A stretch of DNA of 64,000 nucleotides from assembly GCA_902565895.1 (NCBI GenBank), contig CACFGV010000006.1:1-64000 (forward strand). The letters are read 5' to 3'. Shown here piece after piece: positions 31,919 to 34,540 of this stretch. This DNA comes from K189A clade bacterium (GTDB taxonomy: Bacteria > Pseudomonadota > Gammaproteobacteria > Pseudomonadales > Azotimanducaceae). The position numbers and the translations under genes are program-made. Below the pieces are notes generated by a model. The model was not told the DNA's origin. It ran no database searches and was given only the letters and a program-made list of their open reading frames with translations. Position 1 is the first letter of the stretch; each line of letters opens with the position of its first letter.

Positions 31919-32208
31919 GGGGAGAATCCATAGCCCAGTTGAGGCGGCATTCTGCGTTGCCTGGCTGACAGGGTCTAGTGCCACAACCAACTGAACGTTC
32001 AGCAACAGCGCGGGTCTGGGTTGTTGGCGCCCAGCTAACGCGTCTCCGGCCCGCCGTCTTGCTCAGGCCCGCAAACCCCTAATATTCAACGGATTGGAGC
32101 TGTGGTTGTGCAAAATATTCCCTCGTCTATGATCTTCGCTGACCAAGCAGCGACAAAGTGAGCACGCTGTAGGGGAAAAACGAGTATCAGTTGCATAAGG
32201 GGAGCAAG

Positions 32209-33234
32209 GTGTCGCCAAAGGAGAATCAACAGGGGATCGCGGCAGATCGAGTCACTGATTGGATGTCGCAGCACATAGACGATTTGGCCCCACCGCTCAG
32301 TTTTGAACTGATTGCTGGCGGCCACTCCAACCTGACCTATTCTGTGCAGGATCAAAACGGGCGTACCTTTGTGCTGCGGCGTCCGCCGCTGGGCCATGTG
32401 TTGGAGAGCGCCCACGACATGGGACGGGAGCACAAGATCATTACCGCGTTGGCTGGGTCGGCGGTACCAGTAGCCGAAACTGTGGGACTGTGCAAAGACG
32501 TTGCAGTGAACGATGCACCTTTTTATGTCATGCACTACGTAGCTGGCCCGGTGCTGCACGATGCCGAAGTGACGGCTCAAGTGCCAGCACAAGGGCGCGC
32601 GGTATTAGGCGATAACGTTGTAGATGTGCTCGCAGCACTGCATCAGCTTGATCCAGACCAGGTTGGGCTGGGTGATTTAGGGCGCAAAGAAGCTTATCTG
32701 CAGCGGCAACTAACACGTTGGAGCAAACAATGGGACGCCACCGAGACCCATAAAGTGCCAGCTATGGATGAAAGCACCCGATTGCTCGCCGAGCGAATGC
32801 CAGAGCAACTTGGTGCGAGCATTGTTCACGGTGACTATCGCTTGGGCAATATGATTATCGGTGAGGGCAAGGTTAAAGCGGTATTGGATTGGGAGCTTTG
32901 TACCCTGGGTGATCCGCTGGCGGATGTAGGGTATTTGCTGAATAGCTGGATTGCACCAGGCGAGGGCGAAGAAGACATTGCACCCACCTCAGCCGGTGGA
33001 TTTTGTAGCCGCGAACAACTCGCCGAACGCTATGCTCAACAGACCGGTCGTGATCTGAGCGCGATAAATTACTATCGGGCTTTCTCTCACTGGCGTTTAG
33101 CCGCCATTGGTCAAGGAGTCTATAAACGGTACTTGGTCGGTGCTATGGGCGATAACCGTGATGTGGATTTAGAAGCGCAGAAACAAGGCGTTACCCTCAA
33201 AGCCGAAGCGGCGCTGGAGTTTCTAAGCAAGTAA
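32209..33234 (+). CDS. phosphotransferase (aminoglycoside-phosphotransferase fold, ACAD10/11-like)
   Basis: A 341-residue kinase-like protein. LIAGGHSNLTYSV is the glycine-rich loop, FVLRRPP carries the ATP-contact lysine-equivalent region, VHGDYRLGNM is the catalytic loop with Asp, and VLDWELCTLGDPLADVGY holds the metal-binding Asp. This subfamily is like the N-terminal domain of ACAD10/11, where 4-hydroxyacyl-CoAs are phosphorylated before dehydration. GTG at 32209 follows GGGGAGCAAG; the upstream TTG (32191) is rejected. It converges on the candidate sRNA at 33250-33360. Confidence 0.9.
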   Translation: MSPKENQQGIAADRVTDWMSQHIDDLAPPLSFELIAGGHSNLTYSVQDQNGRTFVLRRPPLGHVLESAHDMGREHKIITALAGSAVPVAETVGLCKDVAVNDAPFYVMHYVAGPVLHDAEVTAQVPAQGRAVLGDNVVDVLAALHQLDPDQVGLGDLGRKEAYLQRQLTRWSKQWDATETHKVPAMDESTRLLAERMPEQLGASIVHGDYRLGNMIIGEGKVKAVLDWELCTLGDPLADVGYLLNSWIAPGEGEEDIAPTSAGGFCSREQLAERYAQQTGRDLSAINYYRAFSHWRLAAIGQGVYKRYLVGAMGDNRDVDLEAQKQGVTLKAEAALEFLSK

Positions 33235-33249
33235 CTAAGAGTTGAGAAT

Positions 33250-33360
33250 AAAAAAGGCGTGCCAGACATCGGAACATCTGGAGACAACTCGTCTTCTTGG
33301 GGGAAGGACATTGTAAGGAAGGACTCTACTGAGTTGTACACACGCCTGAACTAAAATCTG
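33250..33360 (-). ncRNA. candidate structured sRNA with anti-Shine-Dalgarno loops
   Basis: On the minus strand a TTGACA-N16-TACATT promoter lies just upstream. The transcript of about 110 nt folds as P1 GGCGUG (33346-33341) with CACGCC (33261-33256), P2 ACAACUC (33337-33331) with GAGUUGU (33290-33284), and P3 CCAGAUG with UGUCUGG (33281-33262 region), then six U (33255-33250). P3 pairs with two G-U wobbles only when read on the minus strand; on the plus strand the same positions would be C-A mismatches. The P2 loop has two copies of GUCCUUCC (33324-33317 and 33309-33302), complementary to ribosome sites. No supported reading frame is within it. It is a prediction from sequence only. Confidence 0.62.
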
Positions 33361-33366
33361 GCGCTA

Positions 33367-33428
33367 AATGTACAGTACAAAAATAAGCTGTCAAGCAAAT
33401 ATTTTAAAATTGTACAGGTTATGTACAA
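33367..33428 (-). promoter_or_regulatory. promoter and TGTACA boxes of the candidate sRNA
   Basis: Minus-strand -35 TTGACA (33394-33389) and -10 TACATT (33372-33367) are separated by 16 bases. One TGTACA box (33369-33374) overlaps the -10. Two more, TTGTACA at 33410-33416 and TGTACAA at 33422-33428, form a 7-base inverted pair with a five-base spacer upstream of the -35. A fourth box, 33335-33340, lies in the transcript. The same boxes flank the MerR gene start, so that regulator is the likely binder. Confidence 0.6.
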
Positions 33429-33477: not shown

Positions 33478-34485
33478 TCAGTGCTGGGGGTTGCCTGCAC
33501 CGCCCTGTGGGTAGTCAGATGGGTTGGTTTGCAGCGGATTGGCGCCGCTTACTGGGTCCTGTTGTTGCTGTTGCAGCAGGGTTTGCAGCGCGATCTCTGC
33601 TTGTGCGCGACTCTGGCCGATATCGCTTGCCGCCTGTTGCAGCGCCTGTGCCTGTGTCGAGGTGGACTGGGTCAAGGCGTCATCGCTGCATACATTTAGA
33701 AAGCTGTTTAGCGCATTAAGCTGATGAATTTGCTCGACAATTTTCTGGTTCGCTTGATGCGGTGAGTCATCAGCTACAGCAACAGCGATCAATTCTTCGT
33801 CGCTAAATAAGCGCGGTGCGCTGACGCCGTACAGCTTCGGTACGCCGAATAGACTTAAGCACTGTTGTTCAATGTCGCGCCAGGGCAGGGGCCAACGTAT
33901 TGGGTTCAGTTCAGTCTCCTCACACTGGCGCACCTGTTCTGCCGTGGCGAATTGGTAAATTGGCAACACCCTCGCAGTTGGCGCCAGGTCTTTGACCTGC
34001 GCGATCAATTGCGGCAGCAATACGGGTAGCTGTAAGGCGATAACATCAACTGACGGTACCTGGGCGTCCGCCAGCAGCGCCTCGACATTGGCCCAGCGGC
34101 CCACCACAGAAACCGAGTCGGCAACCTTTGACTGTTGCTCCAGCTGTAAAATACCCGCGCCGACCAGTGCTACGTTTGCGGCCCGTCCTAAACGGTTGGC
34201 CCCAACGGTGTTTAGATCCTGAGCGGGCTCTACGTTTAGGCGCGCTTCGAGTTGCGTGCTACTGAGTTCGATGATGCGTGAAATTGATTCGCCGCGATCC
34301 AGTAAGCGTTTGATTTTAATTAAATTCTGAACTTGCGTGTGACTGTACAGGCGAATTTTTCCCTTCCTTTCAGCAGGCGCGAATCCATAACGGCGCTCCC
34401 AGGCCCGCAGGCGCTCTGCAGCTATACCGGTCAGCGCGGTAACGCTGCCGATCTGATACAGATCCTGTGCGGGAAAGTCTGTCAT
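33478..34485 (-). CDS. MerR-family regulator (MlrA/CarH/LitR-like)
   Basis: A 335-residue regulator. Residues 8-80 are a MerR winged helix (LYQIGSVTALTGIAAERLRAWERRYGFAPAERK, then IRLYSHTQVQNLIKIKRLLDRGESISRII), close in form to MlrA and the LitR/CarH group. The middle (about 105-215) has a Rossmann-like pattern suggesting a B12-binding-like fold, but the DxHxxG cobalamin motif is absent. The C terminus is Gln/Pro-rich and probably disordered. ATG 34485 is preferred over the upstream 34509. TGTACA boxes precede the gene and the candidate sRNA that follows it. Confidence 0.85.
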   Translation of the reverse strand: MTDFPAQDLYQIGSVTALTGIAAERLRAWERRYGFAPAERKGKIRLYSHTQVQNLIKIKRLLDRGESISRIIELSSTQLEARLNVEPAQDLNTVGANRLGRAANVALVGAGILQLEQQSKVADSVSVVGRWANVEALLADAQVPSVDVIALQLPVLLPQLIAQVKDLAPTARVLPIYQFATAEQVRQCEETELNPIRWPLPWRDIEQQCLSLFGVPKLYGVSAPRLFSDEELIAVAVADDSPHQANQKIVEQIHQLNALNSFLNVCSDDALTQSTSTQAQALQQAASDIGQSRAQAEIALQTLLQQQQQDPVSGANPLQTNPSDYPQGGAGNPQH

Positions 34486-34495
34486 GGTCAAAATC

Positions 34496-34540
34496 TGTAC
34501 AAAGGGCACGGGATATTACCGAAAAACGAGAGTTTGTACA
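34496..34540 (-). promoter_or_regulatory. autoregulatory promoter of the MerR gene
   Basis: TGTACA boxes lie at 34535-34540 and 34496-34501. On the minus strand the first box is 16 bases before TAATAT (34518-34513), so it takes the place of the -35 element; the second lies near the predicted transcript start, just before the gene. This layout suits autoregulation and could also affect the divergent acyl-CoA synthetase gene. Confidence 0.55.

Follow-up and report, generated by a model that had tools for sequence, protein, structure and literature searches.

A conserved small RNA encoded downstream of a LitR/CarH-like MerR gene in a gammaproteobacterial family

Introduction

Does the gap between two convergent genes of a K189A clade bacterium encode a regulatory RNA, and if so, what controls this RNA and on what does it act? 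The gap lies in a 64,000-nucleotide stretch of DNA (assembly GCA_902565895.1, contig CACFGV010000006.1, positions 1 to 64,000), which was analysed as a whole and is called the window here. The genome comprises 2.0 Mb, is 69% complete and belongs to a family whose members are often marine and mostly uncultured. A first-pass annotation had proposed a minus-strand small RNA (sRNA) in this gap, under the control of a MerR-type regulator and with two anti-Shine-Dalgarno (anti-SD) motifs in its loop. On one side the gap is bounded by aph (32191-33234), a gene for an APH-family phosphotransferase, and on the other side, in convergent orientation, by the gene of the presumed regulator:

33478..34509, minus strand: merR gene, LitR/CarH-like helix-turn-helix (HTH) plus receiver-like domain (Pfam, curated models, structure model)

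The conserved start of merR is probably the ATG at 34485.

Results

The element is a structured RNA on the minus strand

The proposed RNA core and its structural parts are located as follows:

33249..33347, minus strand: small RNA core of 99 nt with P1, P2, C-rich loop, P3 and poly-U (fold, alignment, covariance model)
33341..33346, minus strand: P1 5' strand GGCGUG, partner 33261-33256 (RNAalifold, alignment; compensatory change in 1 of 6 pairs)
33256..33261, minus strand: P1 3' strand CACGCC (RNAalifold, alignment)
33331..33337, minus strand: P2 5' strand ACAACUC, partner 33290-33284 (compensatory change in 7 of 7 pairs)
33284..33290, minus strand: P2 3' strand GAGUUGU (RNAalifold, alignment)
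33262..33281, minus strand: P3 hairpin, CCAGAUG 33281-33275 with UGUCUGG 33268-33262 (compensatory change in 7 of 7 pairs)
33293..33306, minus strand: small hairpin CUUC/GAAG displaying CCCC (RNAalifold; retained mainly within the genus)
33250..33255, minus strand: six-T run, terminator tail (sequence; retained in homologues)

The three nested helices and the six-U end are present as the first-pass annotation had described them, and the model gives a single RNA in the shape of a three-way junction. The 99-nt RNA folds with -27.5 kcal/mol (z -3.29), a value equalled by none of 200 shuffled sequences; the fold of the plus strand is less outstanding (z -2.34, with 2 of 200 shuffles as good). Transcription from the minus strand is also indicated by the conserved orientation of the T-run and by promoter elements on the matching side. 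A simple terminator scan reported no terminator, because P1, the stem adjoining the T-run, encloses about 80 bases and thereby exceeds the loop limit of the scan. Judging from the position of the promoter, the transcript is probably about 105-115 nt long with a short 5' leader. In many homologues, the presumed 5' leader carries a recurrent short AGTTT-like element within about 12 bases of P1.

A DNA search of 97 genomes, including that of the window, returned matches with E < 1e-6 in 38 others, 31 of them from the same genus and 7 from other genera of the family. Thirty sequences, reduced to 26 distinct ones by dropping three duplicates and one with undetermined bases, were aligned with MAFFT without structural guidance (alignment A1). 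From A1, RNAalifold recovered P1, P2 and P3 as first predicted, plus the CUUC/GAAG hairpin. Altogether, 95.2% of the cells pair and 9 of the 24 pairs show compensatory changes, and none of 500 shuffles matched either value; slid controls reached 33-49% paired. For further pair types, one of five measures, 108 of the 500 shuffles did as well. A second, structure-fitted alignment was assembled from 81 sources, chosen from strong and weak matches plus named records, and contained 69 distinct sequences. Here, 16 of 24 pairs are compensatory and 198 cells carry double changes vs 50 in shuffles, although this alignment was fitted to the model and leans towards it. The CUUC/GAAG hairpin is the weaker part of the structure in the family-wide set (86% of cells paired).

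Credible matches to the RNA family were found in relatives of the host

Of the 206 family genomes, 94 from 18 of the 37 genera were matched by the covariance model R1, which had been built from A1. One finding that would have refuted the first-pass annotation, stems without compensatory changes in homologous regions, was looked for and not obtained. In a sample of 390 genomes of the order, the wider model R2 gave 8 matches, all from the own family; 18 genomes of this sample, listed by kinship, belong to the own family, so that the 372 others would be free of matches. In a sample of 274 genomes of the class, 3 matches were obtained, namely the own genome and two near E 0.06. For the order and the class, 10-15 candidates per genome were scored under strict filters, so that absence in these samples is no proof. 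The two class matches near E 0.06 were rejected as chance, since neither has a merR homologue or a UCCUYCC in the matched stretch. The same applies to the one pattern match in viral contigs, which has neither a model nor a merR match. A pattern scan of 84,980 species genomes yielded 56 stretches, all in metagenome-assembly records whose titles name Gammaproteobacteria, Proteobacteria, Pseudomonadales or groups within, including HTCC2089, K189A clade, OM182 and Candidatus Azophilus; the named host records examined were likewise metagenome assemblies only, and the family is probably the HTCC2089 family of GTDB.

Rfam 15 gave no match at the gathering score in the window and none at E up to 1 in five homologous loci, and no title found in the open-licence literature searched describes the RNA. 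By its fold and conservation, the element is almost certainly a real non-coding RNA gene, and its standing as a new sRNA family is strongly supported.

Two C-rich motifs in the loop differ in conservation

The loop closed by P2 contains both motifs that the first-pass annotation had proposed as anti-SD elements:

33317..33324, minus strand: C-rich motif 1, GUCCUUCC, elsewhere in the family commonly GUCCUCCCU (alignment)
33299..33309, minus strand: C-rich motif 2, GUCCUUCCCCC, the most conserved stretch of the loop (alignment)

The two copies of GUCCUUCC in the window, at a distance of 15 bases, have their starts at 33324 and 33309. Of the 69 distinct RNAs, 67 contain UCCUYCC, and 56 of them have two copies. 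On average, the first UCCUYCC copy, in most single-copy RNAs motif 2, is unpaired with a probability of 0.77 and the last of two copies with 0.60, compared with 0.38 over the whole RNA. The part of the claim that stood is therefore the presence of two C-rich, mostly unpaired motifs, and what had to be refined is their equal rank: motif 1 is variable (CCUCCC or CCUUCC) and in some species missing as UCCUYCC, and motif 2 with its near-invariant UGUCCUUCCCCC forms the core across genera.

RNA and merR occur together

Of the 69 loci other than that of the window, 68 have a merR homologue, in some cases only a fragment, upstream of the RNA on the same strand. In the remaining locus, L031, a merR fragment was found at the contig end, so that merR is upstream in all 69. 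An aph match, in contrast, is absent in 23 of the 69 loci, seven of which span about 3 kb downstream. Six genomes have a strong merR match without an R1 match. In three of them (G028, G226, G162) merR stops at the contig end, and the other three have diverged RNAs: G224 (42.2 bits, R2), G240 (32.1 bits, R2) and G014. The RNA of G014 scores from 17.9 (R1) to 23.0 (R2) bits, not above chance matches, and was accepted by promoter, merR and position. It lies beside merR (L165, 1521-1609) with the same promoter, has different P2 and P3 sequences and retains of the C-rich motifs only GATGTCCTTCCC, which suggests that motif 2 is essential. Conversely, six genomes of the same genus lack the RNA (G003, G020, G023, G025, G030, G034), and in these merR is unmatched or gives only matches of about 1e-9. 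Since these six genomes without the RNA have no close merR and the RNA loci have one, RNA and merR appear and disappear together.

In one genome (G163), the merR-RNA-aph segment was found twice, on different contigs (L121, L122) and with an identical RNA core, which may reflect a duplication or a mixture of strains.

The regulator resembles LitR/CarH proteins in its DNA-binding part

Pfam detected only a MerR_1 HTH in the MerR protein. The closest curated model was CarH (NCBIfam), with 49 bits far under the cut-off of 400 bits, and the closest solved sequences were CarH and related regulators, matched in the HTH. CarH of Thermus is a B12-dependent light repressor, and its B12-binding part has no match in the sequence of the MerR protein. 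An AlphaFold2 model from 25 sequences reached a mean pLDDT of 79.8 and a pTM of 0.42. With Foldseek, CarH was the best full-length match to this model (E 1.6e-6) at a TM of about 0.2, which indicates that the placement of the domains differs; the middle part matches CpaE and response-regulator receiver domains with target TM values of mostly 0.55-0.71. The protein (33478-34485) accordingly joins a CarH-like HTH to a Rossmann domain, predicted to be of the receiver/CpaE type, in the place of the B12 domain. Neither B12-binding domains (class I) nor a four-helix bundle (class II) were found by Pfam and in the model (pTM 0.42), and for this reason we do not file the protein as a LitR or CarH member. 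In its DNA-binding part, it is LitR/CarH-like by sequence comparison.

The sRNA promoter and the merR upstream region share TGTACA sites

The following elements were assigned upstream of the RNA and of merR:

33367..33394, minus strand: promoter with TTGACA 33394-33389, spacer of 16 and TACATT 33372-33367 (sequence; conserved)
33369..33380, minus strand: TTGTACTGTACA operator over the spacer and -10 region (TGTACWGTACA exact in 48 of 70 loci)
33411..33427, no strand assigned: pair of TGTACA half-sites with a period of 11 (33411-33416, 33422-33427), upstream of the promoter (sequence)
34496..34540, no strand assigned: two TGTACA sites upstream of merR (34496-34501, 34535-34540) with a presumed role in autoregulation (sequence)

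A promoter scan alone does not exceed chance level (2 promoter-like sites on 1.5 kb vs 1.2 expected). The hexamers and the spacer named in the first-pass annotation are present, and they are conserved across the loci: TTGAC was found in 59 and TTGACA in 50 of the 70 sRNA promoters. In 40 promoters with an exact TTGAC, TGTACWGTACA also follows 7-9 bases past the -35 hexamer; the 22 of 70 promoters without the exact palindrome have diverged forms instead. TGTACA also occurs upstream of merR in 34 of 42 regions, with 50 hexamers vs 1.4 expected from mononucleotide shuffles, a count of related, non-independent loci from which 28 of the 70 had been dropped as the merR start was unrecognised or too near the locus end. 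The 11-base-period TGTACA repeats upstream of the window promoter have similar, uncounted pairs in part of the homologues, and this spacing resembles a one-turn direct-repeat operator.

In 40 genomes of the genus, the pattern TTGTACWGTACA gave 39 rows vs 10 for the reversed control. These correspond to 34 distinct places, 28 of which are at the promoter of this RNA; the main target labelled by this exact site is thus the RNA. Five of the six remaining places (all but G006:C112) have neither a merR nor an RNA match below E 1.

Given the linkage and the shared operator, the RNA is very probably controlled by the neighbouring LitR-like MerR protein, which upholds the MerR control first proposed and narrows it to a regulator with a LitR/CarH-like HTH. 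In class II LitR repressors of Pseudomonas, the TGTACA half-sites are spaced by N12, and one of these proteins, PmlR2, prevents transcription until a light-activated LOV protein removes it (PMC9758184). Half-sites of this type are present in the target promoters described here, although their spacing differs. The normal distance between -35 and -10 and a site that covers the -10 region make repression more likely than classical MerR activation, and from this operator position we consider control by repression likely.

Exact complements of motif 2 are not enriched at gene starts

The target search used exact long complements and, for start sites, ATG only. In 40 genomes, GGGAAGGAC-N2-11-ATG was hardly enriched (48 vs 38 for the reversed control; 29 loci viewed in gene context for the 48 rows). 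The first-pass annotation had expected pairing with ribosome sites of the GGAAGGAC type, which was not supported: in eight genomes of the subclade of the window, GGAAGGAC-N2-11-ATG was rarer than its control (19 vs 30 rows), and none of the 19, all viewed in context, opens a frame of at least 60 codons outside a longer frame. The 11-base complement GGGGAAGGACA was found anywhere at 43 places (30 loci viewed), of which 23 are the RNA's own antisense, leaving 20 vs 25 in the control. Among the contexts viewed, neither the start-site nor the 11-base complement search yielded a recurrent conserved target. Isolated gene starts in single genomes belong to what we take to be an ExbD-like and a GMC-oxidoreductase-like gene (G037) and a multicopper-oxidase-like gene (G028); none of them recurred among the contexts viewed. 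Predicted pairing of the RNA with its neighbours merR, acs and aph, computed without shuffle controls, gave nothing interpretable and was not used.

Discussion

Alternative explanations of the element

Does the locus need a separate sRNA gene at all? On the same strand and downstream of merR in every locus checked, the element could be the 3' untranslated region of merR with its terminator, processed or read through. The RNA is separated from merR by a conserved -35 and operator, and conservation extends beyond a terminator hairpin to the entire 99-nt structure, which makes this improbable. A small protein is still harder to defend and appears highly improbable to us. Although a 73-aa frame (33120-33341) is open in the window and GUG-UCC-UUC-CCC is widely conserved as sequence, the corresponding frame has anything between 1 and 231 codons in the 35 homologues listed, attains at least 30 codons in only 21 of 70 and has GCG at its start in 14 of 70. 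The coding reading was rejected on this erratic frame length and the missing 3-base pattern in the length variation of 89-111 nt; changes in the stems are compensatory, and a conserved frame is absent among the 70 homologues, in keeping with the first-pass annotation, which had found no supported frame to fit the element. The position between convergent genes would also suit a terminator common to merR and aph, or inverted repeats that arose by chance. The probability of this is practically negligible, with conservation in 18 genera, compensatory changes in both alignments, a one-sided U-run, and merR always present where aph is often unmatched, even in loci that extend far enough downstream.

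The more serious rival accepts an RNA that is real and controlled by MerR and differs in the action of the loop: the C-rich motifs would have a protein or one dedicated RNA as their partner, as in a titrating or sponge RNA, instead of ribosome-binding sites. Since exact complements at gene starts are not enriched and the 11-base complement stays at background, such a partner is a live alternative, and the near-invariance of UGUCCUUCCCCC across genera points in the same direction. On the other hand, both variants of motif 1, CCUCCC and CCUUCC, are complementary to purine-rich SD sequences, no candidate partner is known, and short imperfect seeds would have been missed by the pattern tests. We therefore regard a dedicated partner as unlikely, and anti-SD action of the C-rich motifs, as suggested by their sequence and exposure, as plausible and on balance the reading we lean towards.

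A proposed repressor-sRNA module

The best explanation of the locus as a whole, and in our view a reasonably likely one, is a module of a repressor and a derepressible sRNA with anti-SD action. The MerR protein would repress its own promoter and that of the sRNA by binding to their TGTACA sites, which in the latter cover the spacer and -10 region. A signal, by analogy to LitR perhaps light or photo-oxidative stress, would release it, and the freed promoter would then yield a stable RNA, about 110 nt long, with P1 closing it, the terminator at its end and the two C-rich motifs displayed in the P2 loop. Together with Hfq, these motifs may base-pair with mRNA targets at G-rich ribosome-binding regions and thereby prevent their translation. 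We infer both the signal and the use of Hfq; an hfq gene is present in the genome. Several findings speak against this module: exact complements of motif 2 are hardly enriched before ATG and no target recurred among the contexts viewed, pairing to SD sequences alone would not require motif 2 to be as invariant as it is, the spacing in TGTACWGTACA is unlike that of TGTACA-N12-TGTACA in LitR systems, 22 of 70 promoters lack the exact palindrome, and the CarH matches are far under the cut-off in sequence and low in TM. A more specific version is conceivable, though we hold it to be speculative and rather doubtful. Here, a repressor descended from LitR/CarH, its light-sensing part swapped for a receiver-like domain, would have the sRNA as its sole external target and convert a signal into a post-transcriptional switch, with the near-invariant UGUCCUUCCCCC acting on one dedicated partner.

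Comparison with known systems

Exposed UCCC-type motifs that pair near ribosome sites are a feature of the LhrC family of Listeria and of RsaE/RoxS, whose fold differs from that of the RNA described here. Unlike the present host, these systems are Gram-positive, and LhrC is under a two-component system. C-rich loop motifs are also shared with the CcsR1-4 'cuckoo' RNAs of Rhodobacter sphaeroides. CcsR1-4 further have a stress link and interact with Hfq, both of which would be likenesses under the proposed module, but these four homologues are processed from the ccaF1 3' UTR and depend on alternative sigma factors (PMC8307010), whereas here one RNA has its own promoter. NmsRA and NmsRB of Neisseria meningitidis resemble our RNA in two UC-rich anti-SD segments in unpaired regions; both motifs were mutated in NmsRA, and the paper ascribes its effect to them (PMC5362039). 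NmsRA and NmsRB are sibling RNAs with three separate stem-loops, in contrast to the single three-way junction with its own MerR regulator.

On the side of the regulator, the class II LitR proteins PplR1 and PmlR2 of Pseudomonas share the MerR-type HTH, the TGTACA half-sites and promoter repression, the last being likely in our case. The LitR targets named there are, however, protein genes with TGTACA-N12-TGTACA sites, a LOV partner is involved, and the C-terminal part is a four-helix bundle (PMC9758184), where the MerR protein described here has TGTACWGTACA sites and a predicted receiver-like domain. In the literature searched, we found no paper on a LitR-type repressor that controls an sRNA.

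Implications

If the proposed control is true, the locus would be an example of a LitR-type repressor controlling an sRNA. Because the three components, regulator, operator and RNA, occur as a unit, a small reconstituted system could be used to test the signal, the repression and the effect of the RNA. For the host family, the finding adds a well-supported sRNA family that is missing from Rfam 15 and that is tied to one regulator via a shared operator.
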